Assembly (NCBI RefSeq): GCF_038446525.1
Contig: NZ_CP151792.1
Location: forward strand, 1,488,001 to 1,552,000
Origin: Methanolobus sp. ZRKC5
GTDB lineage: Archaea > Halobacteriota > Methanosarcinia > Methanosarcinales > Methanosarcinaceae
Length of the DNA stretch: 64,000 bases
Direction: 5' to 3'
Positions 1,927 to 9,284 of this stretch are shown here, one piece after another. Positions within the stretch are counted from its first letter, which is position 1, and each line of letters starts with the position of its first letter. A model generated the notes under the pieces. That model searched no databases, was not told the origin of the DNA, and saw nothing but the letters and a program-made list of their open reading frames with translations. A program made the position numbers and the translations under genes.

Positions 1927-4041
1927 CTACTGAAACTTACTCCTTAATTTATCATAGAAAGCCTGTTCTTTTCCACCTGTCTTTTTTGAAAGCCTCTCTA
2001 CAATCAGTTCAGGGGTGCTTTTTGCAACATAATTATAACGGGGACTCCTGTCAACTATTAAATTCAGTTCGGCATCCAGCCCGCTTGCCTCTATCCCATC
2101 AACCCTGAGATCACAGACAATATTCTCCATGATCTGCTCTGAAAGGTGCGACACAAATATAGACATAGTACTCTCGTTTTCAGTTAAAACTTCAAGTATT
2201 CCAGCCATGATCTTTGCAGAAGCTCCAGGTTCTGTGATGGATTCAAGCTCATCTGCCAGAACAAATTTTGCAGAATCATCAGCTACCACAGAGAACTCAG
2301 TAAGAGTAGTTTCAAATGCACCTGCATCTAATGTACCTTTTGATTTAGCAAAGTAGTACATCGACTCAGTGAGAGATAGTTCCATATGCTGCGCAGGAAC
2401 AGGAAATCCCATCTGCGCAAGGATGCTGCTCTGCGCAAGGAGTTCCAGAAGGGAGGTTTTTCCTCCTGAATTAACGCCACTTAAAAGTACGACCCTGCTG
2501 GCCTCACTTTTAGGACTGAAACTGTTCTCACCCACTGAATAGTCAATTGGTATCACATCACCGTGTCTGGAAAGCAAAAACAGGTTCCTTCCACCCTTAA
2601 AACCAATCCCTGTACCATCTATAATTTCCGGCATAACAAGATCATATGCCAGTGCAAAAGAACCGATTGCAAATCCCACATCAAAATCAAGTACTTCGCG
2701 AACCATTTCCCGGACAATTGTTTTGTAGGAAGACAATATGCGCGAAACTTCGCGTTTATGGTCGAATTTTCTTTTCAGGACCTTTTTATTCAAGTGCTGT
2801 TTCAAAGCATTCAGATTATCAACATCTGCTTCCACAGGATGCATGATCTCTTCCGGAAAAAAAGAATCGACCATTAATCTTTCCTTTTTTTCAAGCTGAA
2901 GTTCATTGCATATTCTGTCCGCACCGTCCTTAACGATGGAGTAATAACTTTTGTGCAGCTTCTTTCCAAGTATCTCTTTCAGCTCAATGGAACCATTCAT
3001 CACTTTCAGCATATCCTGTCCGCTAAGAGTCATCTGGCTATTCTCCAGACAGGAATTCAGACCATCGTTTACAATACGCACAGTTTCTGTTACAGTAGAA
3101 CTAAGCTTGTCTGTTGCATCGGAAATTCGGTCTACTTCTTCATCAATCCCATGAACAATATCACCATTCTCGTCTATAAGAGCCAATGTAGAGGCAAGCA
3201 ACTCAAGCTTATCATCATCCATGCTGTCAAAGAAACTAATTCCCCTGGAACGGAGCAGCCTTATCACTTTAATAGAAGATTCTATTGACTTGAGATTCCG
3301 GGAAAATGCCACTATTTCTTTTTCAGGTATAACCTTGAAATCATCTATTTCCTGCAGGTCAGAATAGAATTCAGGGTCCACATCTTCCGGAAGATCAAAT
3401 GACAGGTAATCATCGCCCACGGCAATAACCTGGGAGAAGCCCCTTGAAATATCAATGAATTCTGAAAGGGAACGTGCAAAATTCACATCAAGCAATCCTG
3501 CAAACCGTTTTTTCGCATACTCGTAACTATCCTGGTCAGATGTTATGATAACTCTGTCACGGATCTTTGGGCACGGGTGTTTAAAATTAAGCTGTGTGGC
3601 TTTTGACAACAGGTCAACAATAGTCCCATCTCCCTCAAGAAGATTGGCAGTTTCCATGTAATATGAAACTGATTCACGTACCCGCATTATCTTTTGAATC
3701 TTGGTAGAAGGATACGGGAAAAAAACATGTAGTTTGTCCCTGGAATATTGAGTATGAGCAAACTCCTTGACTAGGTCAAGCAATTTTTCATAGACATCCA
3801 TTGCCTCTTTGGTTCTTAAAAAATCAGAAACATTAACTCCTTCAACCCTGGAAGCTACATCCTGGATAAGGGAGATGGCATAGCGTTGACCAATACCCTC
3901 TACCTCGGAAATGCTGGCAATATCACCGGCAAGTATAGCATCAAGGGCCTGATTTTCACTACCGAAATGCTCTACAAAACGTTTAGACATTTTATCCCCT
4001 ATGCGGGGAATATCCTGTAAGGTCCTGACATCAGCTAACAT
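1927..4041 (-). CDS. MutS-family ATPase with N-terminal HhH
   Basis: This 704-residue protein has a helix-hairpin-helix region at about residues 5-60 (IPRIGDKMSKRF, VEGIGQRYAISL), a long helical middle, and a MutS-type ABC ATPase in the last third. Walker A (GVNSGGKTS) is near residue 522 and Walker B (VLADELES) near 590. No MutS1 mismatch-reading domain or MutS2 Smr domain is evident, so it belongs to an archaeal MutS-related group of unknown function. Its ATG overlaps the TAA of the upstream DUF4130 gene by one base (TAATG), which implies coupled translation and a shared process. Binding to branched or damaged DNA is an inference from the HhH and MutS parts. Confidence 0.85.
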   Translation of the reverse strand: MLADVRTLQDIPRIGDKMSKRFVEHFGSENQALDAILAGDIASISEVEGIGQRYAISLIQDVASRVEGVNVSDFLRTKEAMDVYEKLLDLVKEFAHTQYSRDKLHVFFPYPSTKIQKIMRVRESVSYYMETANLLEGDGTIVDLLSKATQLNFKHPCPKIRDRVIITSDQDSYEYAKKRFAGLLDVNFARSLSEFIDISRGFSQVIAVGDDYLSFDLPEDVDPEFYSDLQEIDDFKVIPEKEIVAFSRNLKSIESSIKVIRLLRSRGISFFDSMDDDKLELLASTLALIDENGDIVHGIDEEVDRISDATDKLSSTVTETVRIVNDGLNSCLENSQMTLSGQDMLKVMNGSIELKEILGKKLHKSYYSIVKDGADRICNELQLEKKERLMVDSFFPEEIMHPVEADVDNLNALKQHLNKKVLKRKFDHKREVSRILSSYKTIVREMVREVLDFDVGFAIGSFALAYDLVMPEIIDGTGIGFKGGRNLFLLSRHGDVIPIDYSVGENSFSPKSEASRVVLLSGVNSGGKTSLLELLAQSSILAQMGFPVPAQHMELSLTESMYYFAKSKGTLDAGAFETTLTEFSVVADDSAKFVLADELESITEPGASAKIMAGILEVLTENESTMSIFVSHLSEQIMENIVCDLRVDGIEASGLDAELNLIVDRSPRYNYVAKSTPELIVERLSKKTGGKEQAFYDKLRSKFQ

Positions 4042-4886
4042 TATACCTCCAATTCGGATGCAAAAGAATCCAGGGTGCAGTTTGCAATACCTTTTTCAAC
4101 CTTGTACCTGTCCCTTTCCGACATCTTGCTCATGGACGCAGAAGCTTTTGGCTGCACTTGCTTGGCATGGTTTTTGTTTCTCCGGTTGTGGATCATCTGA
4201 GAATCATAGTACATATCCCACAGATCATCAACCTCATCACGTTCATTAGTAAACTCAAGGCTACCTGCCAATGAAGAAGGCACCTTTGTGAAATGTTCAA
4301 GGCCTACATGAGCACCGTTCCCTATCCAGGCAATATCTCCCTCTATTACTGAAACAGGAAGATCCGGGTTTTTCCTTGAAAGCCAGCGACAGAACATATC
4401 TCCTATCTGATGTGGGGATTCTATTTTGACAGACAACACTCCATTAACAAAAGCAGGTCGTGCAAACATGCACAAACGATGATATGAACGACTTACATCT
4501 CGCATGTAATTGTAATATTTTTTACCCGTGCTGCTCTTACCTGAATAAAGAAGTTCGACATTTCCCTCGCAAAAACACAGAAAATGCACCAGTTCGATTG
4601 GTCGTGAGCTTCGATGTCTCAGTACCATTGCTATGTATCCTTCAACATCCGGATCACGCTGGAACATTCTTGAGCCCCGTTTTCCAAATATATTACGTAC
4701 AAGCTTTGTTGTATCTGACATACATCTGAAGCCGAGAGTTTTCACTTCATCGATGCCTGTGAACTCCATCTTTTGTTTCAGTTCATCTCTGTCCTTTGCA
4801 GAAATGAGATCACAATCCGGATTACTTGAGATTTCTTCACAGGCGAGCAAGACACCTTCTACATTTTCCCTGAATGCTACGATCAT
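4041..4886 (-). CDS. DUF4130 / TIGR03915-family putative DNA metabolism protein
   Basis: The 281-residue product matches what I know of the DUF4130 family, a partner of the TIGR03916 radical SAM protein that is elsewhere fused to UdgX-type uracil-DNA glycosylases. Recognisable stretches are YNYMRDVSRSYHRLCMFAR, LSRKNPDLPV, and DDLWDMYYDSQMIHNRRN; the last is typical of its C-terminal part. The start codon overlaps the stop of the radical SAM gene (ATGA) and the stop overlaps the next start (TAATG). No reaction has been shown for the family to my knowledge; involvement in DNA modification or repair is inferred from context. Confidence 0.85.
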   Translation of the reverse strand: MIVAFRENVEGVLLACEEISSNPDCDLISAKDRDELKQKMEFTGIDEVKTLGFRCMSDTTKLVRNIFGKRGSRMFQRDPDVEGYIAMVLRHRSSRPIELVHFLCFCEGNVELLYSGKSSTGKKYYNYMRDVSRSYHRLCMFARPAFVNGVLSVKIESPHQIGDMFCRWLSRKNPDLPVSVIEGDIAWIGNGAHVGLEHFTKVPSSLAGSLEFTNERDEVDDLWDMYYDSQMIHNRRNKNHAKQVQPKASASMSKMSERDRYKVEKGIANCTLDSFASELEV

Positions 4887-5992
4887 GCACCTACCCCCGT
4901 AAATGAGAATAAGTTTGTCTGTTTTTTTCCGTTTATTTCAATGAAGGGACGTGCACGACCAAGAACGACACCCATGCGTGCAAGTTCTTTTTCTGATGCT
5001 ATGGGCCTTGACTGAATAATCCTGCTTGCGCCCACTGGACCAATTCCCGGCACTGTGAGCAACTCTTCCCTGCTTGCAGAGTTAATGTTCACCGGGAACA
5101 TATCAGGACGGCATGATGCAAGGAGCATTTTAGGATCAGTGTCACAGAGGAAACCATTGTCATCGAGAACAGAATCCAGGTCATTAGCAGTCATACCATA
5201 ATCCTTCAGAAGATAGGAAGTCTGATACAGTCTTGTTTCCCTCCATTGGGGAGAAGGCTCATTGTTTTCAAGGGGAGTGAATGGAACCGGGTCGAAACTC
5301 ATAAAGTAAGGCCTTCTCAGTTCATACCTGTCCATGAACTTCTCAACGGTTCCGATAATCTCCCTGTCAGATTCCTGCAGAGCTCCCACCACAAACTGAG
5401 TGTCGTTGGCACCAATGATACGCCCTCTGGAACCTGTCTCTCGCCTTTTCTTATTAATCAGATCCCGTGTCCATTGCAAACGCTGGAGTACATCATTCTT
5501 ATAATCAAAATTTGGACATATTTCCGAATAATTAAGTGAACTTGTAGTCTCTGCATTCACACCAAACTTATTTGCGTAATCAGCGATTTCCTCAAGCAGA
5601 TACTTTGGAGTACCTGGCATTACACGAATATGGATATAACCAGTAAATCCCTGACCTCTCAAAAGTCTTGCAACATCTAATTGCTTCTCTGCTGTCCTTT
5701 CAGAATCACCGATAACACCGGAGGACAGAAACAGGCCTTCTATTGCATTCCTTCGGTAGAAAGACCATGTGATCTTCACTATTTCTTCAGGACTTAATGA
5801 TGCACGCACAGAATCCCTGCCACACCTGTTCGGACAATACGTACACTCTCCAGAACATGCATTTGTCATCAATGTCTTATAGAGTTGTATGCAACGACCA
5901 TCTGGTCCGAAAGCATGACAGACTGCACTCTGGTTGCAACTGTCATATTTGGTACCTTCGGACAGCAGTCTCATCCTTTCCATAAGCGTCAT
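4883..5992 (-). CDS. Radical SAM protein, TIGR03916 type (putative DNA repair)
   Basis: This 369-residue protein has the CxxxCxxC cluster motif (C46, C50, C53 in CSGECTYC), followed by C57, and ends in a helix-hairpin-helix segment (LLTVPGIGPVGASRI), a layout typical of the TIGR03916 family. The frame is open upstream to 6103, but the family N-terminus (MTLMERMRLLSEGTKYD) starts at 5992, so I use that ATG. The stop overlaps the DUF4130 start by four bases. A cluster-binding SAM enzyme with an HhH DNA-binding tail suggests chemistry on DNA or a nucleotide; this is inference. Confidence 0.88.
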   Translation of the reverse strand: MTLMERMRLLSEGTKYDSCNQSAVCHAFGPDGRCIQLYKTLMTNACSGECTYCPNRCGRDSVRASLSPEEIVKITWSFYRRNAIEGLFLSSGVIGDSERTAEKQLDVARLLRGQGFTGYIHIRVMPGTPKYLLEEIADYANKFGVNAETTSSLNYSEICPNFDYKNDVLQRLQWTRDLINKKRRETGSRGRIIGANDTQFVVGALQESDREIIGTVEKFMDRYELRRPYFMSFDPVPFTPLENNEPSPQWRETRLYQTSYLLKDYGMTANDLDSVLDDNGFLCDTDPKMLLASCRPDMFPVNINSASREELLTVPGIGPVGASRIIQSRPIASEKELARMGVVLGRARPFIEINGKKQTNLFSFTGVGA

Positions 5993-6154
5993 ATGGTGCT
6001 CATTAACAGGATTTCTGGGAATCATTAATAGACAATATGGCAGATGCGGATATAAGCAACCTGTAAGCATGGTGAAAGTATTCATCAGAACAGATAGAGA
6101 CATACGAAAAGAAAAAAGGACAAAACAATGGATTTCAAAAAAAAAAAAATAAGA

Positions 6155-6402: not shown

Positions 6403-6957
6403 TCATTCCTTTTTGAATTTGACATTCACCTTTAAGATGCTTATTGGTTCCAGCTTCTTCCACATGACTGTTCCTTCTCTGTCGAATTTATGCTCATTGA
6501 CATTCTGTTCAGAGAATTCACCATCTACCTCGTATATAAAGAAACCTTCTTCACCATTTGTGGAAACAATGTTGTCTTGCCCGTGAACATTCTTCACTTC
6601 CACTACTGCAGCCTTCTTAAGTGCTTGCAGAAGTGTTGCACCCTTTTCCACTTCAACCGTTCTGGAAGGTGCAAATATATCCAGAGCATGGAAAATATTC
6701 TTATTGTTCAATTGCAGTACATGTGTTTTACCGTAAATCTTGCGCTGTATGAGGTCAGCAGCTTCAAGTATATTTGCATGTTTTGCAGCAACCGGAACAG
6801 AAATACTAAGCATCCTTGCAAGTTCAGATATATGCATTTCACCTTCAGTAAGCTGTTGTAGCATTCTTAGTCTGGTTTCACTTCCAAGTGCACTAAAAAG
6901 TTTCAAACGATCCATCTTTTCTGGATTCTCGGAATCATTGTTATCGAGAGTACTCAT
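6403..6957 (-). CDS. ArsR-type winged-helix regulator with DUF4430-like C-terminal domain
   Basis: Residues 15-95 form a winged helix-turn-helix of the ArsR kind (LFSALGSETRLRMLQQL, ISELARMLSISVPVAAKHANILEAADLI). Residues 98-182 resemble the DUF4430/transcobalamin-C-like beta-grasp domain: VEVEKGATLLQALKKA is the usual opening, followed by GFFIYEVDGEF and later VMWKKLEP. No metal-binding cysteines are present, so it is not a classical metal sensor. It is encoded downstream of and on the same strand as the TIM-barrel and cbiZ genes, with a 134-bp gap that may hold its own promoter. A ligand-sensing role, possibly for a corrinoid, is inference. Confidence 0.75.
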   Translation of the reverse strand: MSTLDNNDSENPEKMDRLKLFSALGSETRLRMLQQLTEGEMHISELARMLSISVPVAAKHANILEAADLIQRKIYGKTHVLQLNNKNIFHALDIFAPSRTVEVEKGATLLQALKKAAVVEVKNVHGQDNIVSTNGEEGFFIYEVDGEFSEQNVNEHKFDREGTVMWKKLEPISILKVNVKFKKE

Positions 6958-7091
6958 AATTAAGAGTAAACATAGAGTTCAATATAAGCTTTTCTACACA
7001 AACAGTCCATTTAACAGCCTATTTTATAAAGATAACTTATAAAATATATATGTATATGTATAACAACTGCACAATAATACAAATGCAAGAA

Positions 7092-8072
7092 TTATCCATG
7101 CAATGCTCGTTTCTGCGTAGCTATTTTCATATCAAGAGATTGCAAATCAGTTGAAACAAATTCGTGGGTCAGGAAATCAGGAGATACGAATTCAACTATC
7201 TGAGAACATTTCTCACTGGTGAAAGGCATATGGTGATCAATCTGTTCAAGTATTCCCATAACCGATAAAAGGCGCTCATGAAAATGCATTTTATCAAACC
7301 CCGCAGGGACATCCTTTCCCATGGAGTTACGCATGAACTCACCTGATAAACTGCAGTGGAAATGCATGCCTTCAATTCGTTTGATGAAATCCTCAGAATG
7401 AGTGGAAAGCAGATCCAATACAACATCGATTGAGCATTCCTCATCTTCACACTTCATAGTAGCATTCATAAGGTGGCCGGTATCCAGCACGAAAGCCCAA
7501 TTCTCAAAATCAAGAAGGTCTGTAAAATATTCAACATTTTTGGAGTCAAGGAATGTAAGACCTGGCCACCAGAGATTCTCAAAGAATATCCTGACCGGTG
7601 GTTCACCATTCTGATAAATTGAGACAGCATCATTCAGAAATTCAGCAGTTGTTGCAAGCACGTCTTGGTCAGTACAATTAAAACAACGTGTAAAGACCTG
7701 TTCCAGTTCTGCATAAGAAACATGGAACACTGCATACGAAGCATCCAGACGTGCAGCATTCTCAAGTGATCCCCTGAAATTATCAATAACTTCCTCGCGG
7801 CTGCTACCGCCAAAAACGTAAGCCATCTCAAAATCCTCCATTTCCTGTAAAAAAGCAGAAGGATCAGCCCAGGCTCTATGTCGCCCCATCCAATAAGGAA
7901 GATGTACACCCACTATAAGATCCTCGGGCACATCTGGAAGCGGAGACGAATCCACAAAGAGTTCCAGCCCATCCAGGCCATGTCTTACAAGGAAATTCCG
8001 TATCATACCCCAGTTAGAATTGAACATTTTCATGTCATGATCACAAAGAGAAAAATTCATCATTTCTTTCAT
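7092..8072 (-). CDS. Xylose isomerase-like TIM-barrel protein
   Basis: The 326-residue protein resembles the AP-endonuclease-2/sugar phosphate isomerase superfamily. Candidate metal-site segments appear in order: VGVHLPY, VFHVSY, FFENLW, VLDTGHLMNA and GMHFHCS. This pattern of His/Glu/Asp at barrel strand ends suits a divalent-metal enzyme, but the substrate cannot be read. The start is preceded by a GGGGTG Shine-Dalgarno, 18 bases after the cbiZ stop, so the two form an operon. A link to corrinoid or cofactor metabolism is suggested only by this neighbour. Confidence 0.75.
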   Translation of the reverse strand: MKEMMNFSLCDHDMKMFNSNWGMIRNFLVRHGLDGLELFVDSSPLPDVPEDLIVGVHLPYWMGRHRAWADPSAFLQEMEDFEMAYVFGGSSREEVIDNFRGSLENAARLDASYAVFHVSYAELEQVFTRCFNCTDQDVLATTAEFLNDAVSIYQNGEPPVRIFFENLWWPGLTFLDSKNVEYFTDLLDFENWAFVLDTGHLMNATMKCEDEECSIDVVLDLLSTHSEDFIKRIEGMHFHCSLSGEFMRNSMGKDVPAGFDKMHFHERLLSVMGILEQIDHHMPFTSEKCSQIVEFVSPDFLTHEFVSTDLQSLDMKIATQKRALHG

Positions 8073-8090
8073 TTATGCACCCCAAAGGAA

Positions 8091-9284
8091 TCATTTTCTG
8101 GAATTACAAATATCTTTAGGATCACAATTTTTCGCCAACCAGCCAGTAACACGGATCCAATTGTCAATTATTGTATCTTTTTCGTCAGTCAGTTCATCAA
8201 AAGGAATGGAAACATCTATATCAAGCATTTCAGGCAGCCCCTTCATAATAGAAACAGCTACCTTCCTGCCGGCAGTTTCAGGAACGAGACCCCATGAGAT
8301 CTCATCTACAATATGCAATATTGAGCCTGTTGCCCCTACAAGTACGGGATTCTTTGACATCTCACGCAATTTTTTGAAAAAAGCCGCTTTTCGATTATCT
8401 CCATTCATGTGTGATGCAACTTTCCAGTAGTTATTCTCTTCTATTCCAAAACGTTCAAGTCTCACGAGTATATCTCTCTGGGAGAGTGGGGTCAGATCCG
8501 ACTGCATCTCAAGTGCTTTAAGCGTGCATTCGATCACAACTTTCCCTATAAGCTCACCAAGCTTGGAATGCTGACCTGCATCTGTCAACAAAAGAGGACT
8601 TGTAGAGTCTGCAACAACAGCTATCATATCTGTTCCTGAACCTGTGGCAATTCCAGTAGAATAACGACTGGGTGCCATCAACTGCTGCAAAGCGGCAGTC
8701 TTTGCTTCAGAGGCAGTAACCACAGCTCTTGTCATAGCGTATGGTGGAAGATTGGCCCCTATTACTAACATAGTGTTAATAGTTCCCTGAATAAACTGGT
8801 GAGAACCATCTTCCTGATAATAGGATGCAGGGTCACCTACACGCCCTCCATTGATCTCAATACCCGCAGTCATGACAGCAGTTACCTCTACACCACGGAA
8901 AGATTTGGTCACGATAGAAACATTATCCATATTAGCAGCTGTCAACAACCCTGAAGATGTATCAGGATCAGCACCCAAGCTTTTTGCAATAATAGCCAGG
9001 TAAGCAGGAATGCTGCCACCATCAAGATCCTTTGGAGCATGCTTGCTTTTTGGAACCATGTGATTGAAAATTGTCCTCAGGTCTTCCCTGTAGCCACCGT
9101 TTAACCATGAAGTTGTAAGGGTGTTCCTTCCCTCAGGCAAACTTAGCAAAATCGAATCCTTGAACCTGTATACTTTCTCTTTGCCTGTGGTCTCAAAAAG
9201 AAGTACACCCTTTTCTTCTGTATGTTTGTCGACTGGTTCAGACTGATCGTCCTTAGCTGTTACTTTCCTTGATCTTGCTACCAT
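8091..9284 (-). CDS. cbiZ: CbiZ, adenosylcobinamide amidohydrolase
   Basis: CbiZ cleaves the aminopropanol side chain from adenosylcobinamide to give adenosylcobyric acid, the archaeal route for salvaging corrinoids. The CbiZ-specific blocks are clear: LTTSWLNGGYREDLRTIFNH (residues 57-76), the SFRGVEVTAVMTAGI strand, GTINTMLVIGANL, TASEAKTAALQQL and ATGSGTDMIAV. At 397 residues it is longer than the core domain, with an N-terminal charged extension and about 130 C-terminal residues of unknown role. Corrinoids are essential for methylotrophic methanogenesis. I first considered CobT, but these motifs fit CbiZ. Confidence 0.88.
   Translation of the reverse strand: MVARSRKVTAKDDQSEPVDKHTEEKGVLLFETTGKEKVYRFKDSILLSLPEGRNTLTTSWLNGGYREDLRTIFNHMVPKSKHAPKDLDGGSIPAYLAIIAKSLGADPDTSSGLLTAANMDNVSIVTKSFRGVEVTAVMTAGIEINGGRVGDPASYYQEDGSHQFIQGTINTMLVIGANLPPYAMTRAVVTASEAKTAALQQLMAPSRYSTGIATGSGTDMIAVVADSTSPLLLTDAGQHSKLGELIGKVVIECTLKALEMQSDLTPLSQRDILVRLERFGIEENNYWKVASHMNGDNRKAAFFKKLREMSKNPVLVGATGSILHIVDEISWGLVPETAGRKVAVSIMKGLPEMLDIDVSIPFDELTDEKDTIIDNWIRVTGWLAKNCDPKDICNSRK

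Follow-up and report, generated by a model that had tools for sequence, protein, structure and literature searches.

In a 64,000-nucleotide stretch of the Methanolobus sp. ZRKC5 genome (contig NZ_CP151792.1, positions 1,488,001 to 1,552,000; hereafter the window), 3 genes encoding a radical S-adenosylmethionine (SAM) protein, a DUF4130 protein and a MutS-like ATPase follow one another on the minus strand. An earlier note on this DNA proposed that the 3 products form one system that senses a lesion, processes it by radical chemistry and remodels the DNA. Our analysis favors another reading, to which we assign a probability of roughly 0.6: the radical SAM protein and DUF4130, the latter as a pseudo-DHH protein, would form a DNA-repair pair tethered to the replication sliding clamp, with MutS as an optional or passive operon partner. 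This reading draws on the C-terminal tails of the radical SAM proteins, on the predicted fold of DUF4130, on the confinement of the trio to one archaeal family, and on a lineage in which exactly the pair was lost while MutS stayed in place.

The radical SAM and DUF4130 genes form a known pair that overlaps the MutS-like gene

The Methanolobus genome is a single contig of 3.05 Mb, in which the genes and motifs of the trio are located as follows:

4883..5992, minus strand: radical SAM gene (TIGR03916-like, 286.7 bits), 369 amino acids from the ATG at 5992
5834..5857, minus strand: CX3CX2C motif CSGECTYC of the radical SAM protein (residues 46-53), putative [4Fe-4S] cluster ligands, the 3 Cys invariant in 44 homologues
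4979..5092, minus strand: helix-hairpin-helix (HhH) DNA-binding motif of the radical SAM protein (HHH_3, 27.9 bits, cut-off 27; HHH, 25.5 bits, cut-off 24)
4901..4921, minus strand: C-terminal peptide QTNLFSF of the radical SAM protein (residues 358-364 of 369), similar to a PCNA-interacting protein (PIP) box in the tail pattern counts
4041..4886, minus strand: DUF4130 gene (TIGR03915-like), 281 amino acids, predicted DHH-superfamily fold, no DHH motif
4062..4076, minus strand: C-terminal TLDSF of DUF4130, weakly PIP-like (no Gln) in the tail pattern counts
1927..4041, minus strand: MutS-like ATPase gene, 704 amino acids, HhH plus MutS_V, of a euryarchaeal family according to profile scans and homologue alignment
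3862..4026, minus strand: N-terminal HhH domain HHH_5 of the MutS-like protein (29.2 bits, cut-off 27)
2455..2478, minus strand: Walker A GVNSGGKT of the MutS-like protein (residues 522-529), invariant in 14/14 aligned homologues whether the pair is present or not
2242..2259, minus strand: Walker B LADELE of the MutS-like protein (residues 595-600), with D597, E598, L599 and E600 invariant
4883..4886, minus strand: ATGA stop-start overlap of the radical SAM and DUF4130 genes, read from the sequence
4039..4043, minus strand: TAATG stop-start overlap in which base 4041 belongs both to the TAA stop of DUF4130 and to the ATG of MutS

The radical SAM reading frame is open over 4883-6103, and the ATG at 5992 is a plausible start. 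Both junctions and the domains of the 3 products, including the HhH of the MutS-like ATPase, bear out the original description of the locus. Among 57 trio loci, an ATGA start is possible at the radical SAM/DUF4130 junction in 48 and an overlapping start at the DUF4130/MutS junction in 22.

Against TIGR03916 the radical SAM protein (E 3e-85) scored below the curated cut-off of 343.5, which none of 392 genomes of the phylum passed (0/392) and which a Bacillota relative exceeded (405.3). The other traits of that family are present: the CX3CX2C motif, the C-terminal HhH and a DUF4130 neighbor. The DUF4130 protein matched PF13566 (33.5 bits, above the gathering cut-off of 27) and TIGR03915 (25.9 bits, under the cut-off of 112.25), its kinship with the latter being shown through intermediates. 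The first 2 genes had been assigned to the known but uncharacterised TIGR03916/TIGR03915 pair, and gene order, domains, the HhH of the radical SAM protein and adjacency agree with that assignment, whereas the window differs by its sub-cut-off scores, the absence of a UdgX domain and the MutS gene that follows.

Radical SAM tails resemble sliding-clamp peptides of the respective domain of life

The window radical SAM protein ends in KKQTNLFSFTGVGA, and its tail QTNLFSFT (residues 358-365) conforms to the PIP-box consensus QxxLxxFx as given in the available portion of PMC7776575. The tail sits beyond the conserved core of the family and is predicted to be disordered (predicted local distance difference test, pLDDT, below 50 for residues 362-369). 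We counted tail patterns in the last 40 residues of complete open reading frames (ORFs) of 144 archaeal and 30 bacterial radical SAM proteins, also grouped into clusters at 60% identity, and used the other ORFs of the same loci (783 archaeal and 180 bacterial) as background. The archaeal PIP pattern was scored as Q..[LIMV]..[FWY]; for bacteria, the beta-clamp motif found in the accessible text of PMC11139829 (Q-aliphatic-x-[L/M]-[F/L], with an optional insertion) was widened by W/I, and the strict published form was counted separately. Archaeal tails had the form Q-x-x-L-x-x-F/W, with the PIP pattern in 108/144 and the clamp pattern in 3/144. Bacterial tails, such as QLSLF, QLSLL, QLPLW and QLTLW, had the clamp pattern in 21/30 (11/30 in the strict form) and the PIP pattern in 0/30. 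The background contained the PIP pattern in 16/783 archaeal and 8/180 bacterial ORF tails, and the clamp pattern in 10/783 and 2/180, respectively. Counted by cluster, 20/33 archaeal clusters had the PIP pattern (18/31 without the Methanosarcinaceae cluster) and 6/8 bacterial clusters the clamp pattern (3/8 strict). Fisher tests on earlier cluster counts with a looser bacterial pattern gave p values of 4e-22 (archaea) and 4e-12 (bacteria); that pattern had in addition picked up QSTFL of L215, a probable chance match, and the final counts use its replacement.

FEN1 of the same genome ends in GQSTLDKWF, the same pattern as the radical SAM tail, and the tail of RNase HII, included as an extra positive control, is without the motif. 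In mycobacteria, the beta-clamp peptide of ImuB is QLPLWG. A clamp motif was found in none of the MutS-like tails (0/51). Altogether, these counts show that, by sequence, the radical SAM tails are clamp-type peptides, PIP-like in archaea and beta-clamp-like in bacteria, and from them we infer that the radical SAM protein may bind the clamp. One phage-labeled radical SAM record, outside the counts, ends in QLSFF.

DUF4130 is predicted to adopt a DHH fold

An AlphaFold2 model of DUF4130 (47 sequences, pLDDT 82.7) had DHH proteins as its top matches, namely 8a8k_A (Z 11.2, 199 aligned residues, 4.5 Å) and S. aureus RecJ (8y30_A, Z 11.1, 3.6 Å). Archaeal RecJ/Cdc45 and eukaryotic Cdc45 were matched as well, the leading matches being tied within 1 Z. 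The likeness to the RecJ/Cdc45/NrnA DHH superfamily lies in the predicted fold (Z 11.2 to 7.6 over approximately 190-200 residues among the leading matches); unlike that superfamily, the window DUF4130 has no DHH motif, and the N-terminal part is missing in short archaeal forms, which are without the first approximately 90 residues. Because no DHH string occurs in the window protein and the alignment of the long forms contains no conserved catalytic pattern at the N-terminus, DUF4130 is probably a non-catalytic DHH relative. Its best conserved segment (W223, Y227, Q230, R235, N237) falls in a poorly predicted part of the model and may be the contact with the radical SAM protein.

The radical SAM protein was modeled (44 sequences, pLDDT 89.1) as a standard radical SAM barrel that, among the matches listed, was nearest to HydE (Z 19.0, 214 aligned residues, 2.4 Å), lipoyl synthase and biotin synthase, with RlmN also listed. 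Spore photoproduct lyase (SplB) was not among the 50 structures listed. Like the function proposed here for the window protein, SplB is a radical SAM enzyme linked to DNA repair; the window protein differs from it by its HhH and its clamp-type tail.

Among the loci sampled, the trio is restricted to Methanosarcinaceae

We searched 185 genomes of the order and 392 of the phylum. Across the order, MutS was present in 157/185 genomes, the radical SAM gene in 66 and DUF4130 in 65; of the 66 that have the radical SAM gene, 60 carry all 3 genes adjacent and in the same orientation. Contig ends or fragments cut the trio in G121, G122, G143, G144 and G181, and in the last of these (locus L156) the MutS start can be seen after DUF4130 before the break. 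G023 (L171, record SMBSF02, contig C223) has a Methanosarcinaceae-type pair on a 4.1-kb contig; it is a metagenome-assembled genome of a family otherwise free of the pair, with its own MutS elsewhere, and this contig is likely contamination. The pair occurs in 8 genera of Methanosarcinaceae and in none of 6 others (g4, g5, g6, g8, g9, g13), all of which keep MutS.

In the phylum, TIGR03916 matches were found in 131/392 genomes and MutS in 231. Outside Methanosarcinaceae, DUF4130 was detectable in 11 of the 55 genomes with a radical SAM gene that were searched, and MutS adjoined the pair in 0/11, the nearest copy being 10.6 kb away (G210) and the rest far apart or on other contigs. Genomes that we take to be of Archaeoglobus type have the radical SAM gene as well as a MutS relative of shorter length, and in the complete genomes compared these two genes are not linked. 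A scan of a species collection, from which the best 80 of 561 loci were kept and which is biased toward window-like sequences, gave 17 Methanosarcinaceae-like and 63 other named loci, the latter ranging from Methanothrix, Asgard, DPANN and Thermoplasmata archaea to Chloroflexota and Bacillota. The sample for a trio outside the family is limited because only 35 of these 63 loci have at least 2.5 kb upstream and at least 3.3 kb downstream. DUF4130 was present in 43 of the 63 and directly downstream of the radical SAM gene in 42; MutS stood beside the pair in 0/63, and no fixed third gene appeared among 10 neighbors scanned (MsrAB, OmdA, PALP, MMPL, amidohydrolase, PP-loop, MFS and others). A general three-gene system was rejected on this outcome. 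We also considered that MutS replaces a uracil-DNA glycosylase in its slot, which is not supported because most archaeal loci have neither.

Within this sample the trio is restricted to Methanosarcinaceae and has one origin, and it is more than a single-genome accident. The earlier note had stated that finding MutS next to the pair in one lineage only would refute its proposal, and this is largely what we observed. A defense or phage origin of the trio was rejected: PADLOC gave no meaningful match for the locus, PHROGs gave only weak unknown ATPases, and the viral_contigs scan found no relative. Ten records of a phage collection, mostly unannotated gut scaffolds, match a bacterial radical SAM protein.

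The pair was gained once and was lost without MutS

On the MutS tree (43 rows after removal of 29 near-duplicates), presence of the pair needs 2 changes, which we read as one gain at the base of one Methanosarcinaceae clade and one loss in G103/G104, presumably Methanohalobium. In these 2 genomes the ArsR-like gene, MutS and hisB-hisA-hisG are all in place and exactly the radical SAM and DUF4130 genes are missing. Their MutS is not faster, with a root-to-tip depth of 0.87-0.89 compared with 0.79-1.35 in trio genomes. MutS and the pair are thus dispensable to each other: MutS occurs in 157/185 genomes of the order versus 65-66 for the pair, the loss of the pair was precise, and the MutS tree needs only these 2 changes. 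In another genus of the family without the pair, the MutS homologue (L085, G084) has inserts and stands on a very long branch (1.35).

Trees of the 3 genes were compared for 55 loci plus the window, leaving out L097 (in-frame TAG) and L148 (frameshifted). Each pair of trees had 33-34 of 53 splits in common, with 0 conflicts at Shimodaira-Hasegawa approximate likelihood ratio test (SH-aLRT) values of at least 95 and 5, 6 and 10 conflicting split pairs at values of at least 80; tree distances correlated at Pearson 0.89-0.92. Incongruent trees, which had been named as the other outcome contrary to a joint system, were therefore not what we found at the stricter threshold, although conflicts appear at the looser one. 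Such agreement is in keeping with vertical descent of the 3 genes together but is no demonstration of joint function, given that the flanking genes are nearly as faithful: hisB, which lies convergent downstream of MutS and which we take to be hisB from its own sequence and its hisA/hisG neighbors, adjoins MutS in 53/55 testable trio loci, and the gene of the ArsR-like regulator upstream of the trio is kept in 51/57. Since the unrelated hisB is nearly as faithful to MutS, little can be concluded about a three-part machine from the persistence of the gene order.

Two loci carry altered DUF4130 genes. In L097 (7506-8375, minus strand; G147, a probable Methanosalsum zhilinae), codon 67 is an in-frame TAG where the sister has Gln and the remaining frame is intact; this TAG may be read as pyrrolysine. 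In Methanohalophilus profundi (L148/G110, L175), DUF4130 is split over 2 frames, and the radical SAM and MutS genes are intact.

The MutS-like ATPase belongs to a widespread euryarchaeal type

The MutS-like protein scored 33.9 bits for MutS_V (cut-off 30.2). It falls outside MutS1 (34.6 bits versus 641.7; the scan found MutS_V and HhH only, and no mismatch-recognition domain), MutS2 (62 bits versus a cut-off of 400; no Smr domain) and KamC (89.3 bits versus a cut-off of 300). KamC, an ATPase that reactivates a radical enzyme, is nevertheless its top NCBIfam match. From HhH to tail the MutS-like protein aligns at 35-57% identity with 14 homologues from haloarchaea and from groups that we take to be Methanosarcina, ANME-type archaea, Methanothrix and Methanocella. 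Homologues with and without the pair have in common the Walker A LSGVNSGGKT, DELE and the tail FYxxLxxKF, the last of which (window residues 695-703) is nearly invariant from Methanosarcina to haloarchaea; Methanosarcina has this MutS but not the pair. Judged from these alignments and scans, the protein is of a widespread euryarchaeal type that has neither a mismatch-recognition nor an Smr domain. Its closest described counterparts may be MutS5a and MutS5b of the haloarchaeon H. volcanii, and HVO_0191 or HVO_1354 would be the candidate orthologue: full-length haloarchaeal relatives align with the window protein from HhH to tail at 35-37% identity. Unlike in the window, there is no operon with the pair in the 3 haloarchaeal loci read. 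PMC7776575 gives "not involved in mismatch repair" for MutS5a and describes the subfamily of MutS5a and MutS5b as not seen in DNA repair elsewhere.

Bacterial relatives link DUF4130 to UdgX

Of 8 annotated plasmid records, 7 label the gene that follows the radical SAM gene as UdgX family or uracil-DNA glycosylase (L247 stops at the record end); 6 further plasmid records were fetched, carry no annotation and are outside this count. Two of 2 scanned bacterial fusion proteins matched TIGR03915 and TIGR03914 over both cut-offs. These records agree with the statement that relatives of DUF4130 are fused to UdgX-type glycosylases. The window DUF4130 is not of the UdgX-fused form, and Pfam and NCBIfam scans found no uracil-DNA glycosylase family (TIGR03914) in it. 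The UdgX-fused form of Proteobacteria is like the window in that DUF4130 adjoins the radical SAM gene and the genes overlap; it is unlike the window in the attached covalent uracil-binding domain and in its radical SAM tail (QLSLL/QLSLF versus QTNLFSF).

UdgX excises uracil and bonds covalently to DNA, according to the available parts of PMC10359453 and PMC10776899. A figure legend in PMC3765255 presents DUF4130 as an enzyme with a predicted role in mutagenesis that is associated with SplB-like photolyases and with uracil glycosylases, and PMC13212565 mentions TIGR03914-03916 for the glycosylase only. In the literature searched, whose coverage mostly excludes subscription journals, we did not find UdgX together with a radical SAM protein, nor a radical SAM protein with the beta clamp; radical SAM with PIP-box returned only papers that, in their available parts, are on other subjects. 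Within this coverage we found no published account of the clamp tails, of the DHH fold of DUF4130 or of the MutS trio.

A proposed clamp-tethered repair pair and its alternatives

We propose that the core is a two-protein DNA-repair module of radical SAM protein and DUF4130. The radical SAM protein would bind DNA, its presumed substrate, via the HhH motif and would be held at the replication sliding clamp by its C-terminal peptide, which in archaea would fit PCNA (PIP-box type) and in bacteria the beta clamp (QLxLF/W type). DUF4130, with its RecJ/Cdc45-like DHH fold and without the DHH catalytic residues, is likely to hold either single-stranded DNA or a flipped nucleotide, and in Proteobacteria it is fused to the uracil-binding domain of UdgX. 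Behind the fork, the 5'-deoxyadenosyl radical would then act on a base that is damaged or deaminated. An HhH-MutS ATPase of euryarchaea, apparently of the haloarchaeal MutS5 kind, came to lie downstream once in Methanosarcinaceae and has stayed there; it would be an accessory at most and may simply share the transcript. A broader version is one that we put forward tentatively and consider rather doubtful: that both prokaryotic domains run replication-coupled radical repair, in which a clamp-tethered radical SAM protein with a pseudo-DHH (Cdc45-like) partner would repair bases directly behind the fork and damage recognition would fall to a UdgX domain in Proteobacteria and to a dedicated MutS ATPase in Methanosarcinaceae.

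Several observations weigh against the clamp-tethered pair. No pattern was found in 36/144 archaeal and 9/30 bacterial radical SAM tails; Methanothrix tails read DTTLEMW, without Gln, and the motif is absent from Thermoproteota, Bathyarchaeota and several Chloroflexi. W is the last residue of many bacterial tails, and PMC11139829 states that W weakens one clamp motif; motifs this short can also arise by chance or ancestry. The DUF4130 tails are xTLDxF in most archaea, with a strict PIP-box in 1/103 unique archaeal tails; a looser pattern occurs in 77/88 versus 73/774 other ORFs. The DUF4130 fold rests on a predicted model with approximately 10-12% identity to DHH proteins. As to MutS as a mere passenger, pair and MutS are never apart in Methanosarcinaceae that keep the pair, contig ends aside, and in 2 ANME-3-like loci (L127, L129) both flanks have changed and the trio is retained, which is the one point favoring selection on the trio.

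The last of these observations bears on 2 accounts of the linkage. A true three-part repair system in Methanosarcinaceae, in which MutS senses distortion, DUF4130 and the radical SAM protein process it and MutS remodels the DNA, would be in keeping with a trio that is intact in 60/66 genomes (the others being explained by contig ends or contamination), has short gaps and overlaps between its genes, outlasts both flanks in L127 and L129, and yields correlated trees (Pearson 0.89-0.92) without conflict at SH-aLRT of at least 95. We nevertheless consider it unlikely, and the proposal in its original form is not upheld: the trio has a single origin in one family, the MutS of genomes without the pair and of haloarchaea has the same HhH and ATPase signature, most genomes having this MutS family are without the pair, MutS was unaffected by pair loss in G103/G104, its depth staying within the trio range, and hisB is nearly as loyal a neighbor. 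Passive linkage overlaps with our preferred reading and has a little under even odds: the pair would have landed upstream of mutS once and stayed by static local gene order, with MutS unrelated to it. The equally kept hisB and ArsR-like gene, the clean loss of the pair alone and the absence of a fixed third gene elsewhere among the neighbors scanned are consistent with this, whereas the stop-start overlaps in the lineage of the window and the survival of the trio beyond its flanks in the ANME-3-like loci argue against it.

Two further alternatives concern what the proteins act on. That the pair modifies RNA, a nucleotide or a protein, the tail motif being incidental, is suggested by the closest listed folds, HydE, lipoyl synthase and biotin synthase having small-molecule or protein substrates and RlmN an RNA substrate; it is quite improbable given the HhH on the radical SAM protein, clamp-type tails whose kind differs between archaea and bacteria and a DUF4130 partner that is fused to UdgX. 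The MutS-like ATPase could instead serve the radical SAM protein as chaperone or reactivase, in the way that KamC serves lysine 5,6-aminomutase, and not be a DNA protein. KamC is indeed a better NCBIfam match than MutS2 (89.3 versus 62 bits), but the score is far under the KamC cut-off, the match covers the shared ATPase region, the N-terminal HhH, typically DNA-binding, is conserved, and most genomes with the MutS-like gene have no such radical SAM gene, so that this role is very hard to credit.

Under the preferred reading of a clamp-tethered pair, a widespread gene pair annotated only as "putative DNA repair" acquires, through clamp tails that switch with the domain, the testable claim that its radical SAM protein acts on replicating DNA. 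Through its predicted DHH fold, DUF4130 can be placed structurally for the first time, and the trio lends itself to a natural comparison of close relatives having the pair against one lineage in which the pair alone was lost and MutS kept.

The window further encodes, upstream of the trio (6403-9284, minus strand), the ArsR-like regulator, which weakly matches DUF4430, together with a CbiR-like TIM barrel protein and a CbiZ/CbiS-like cobamide salvage protein.

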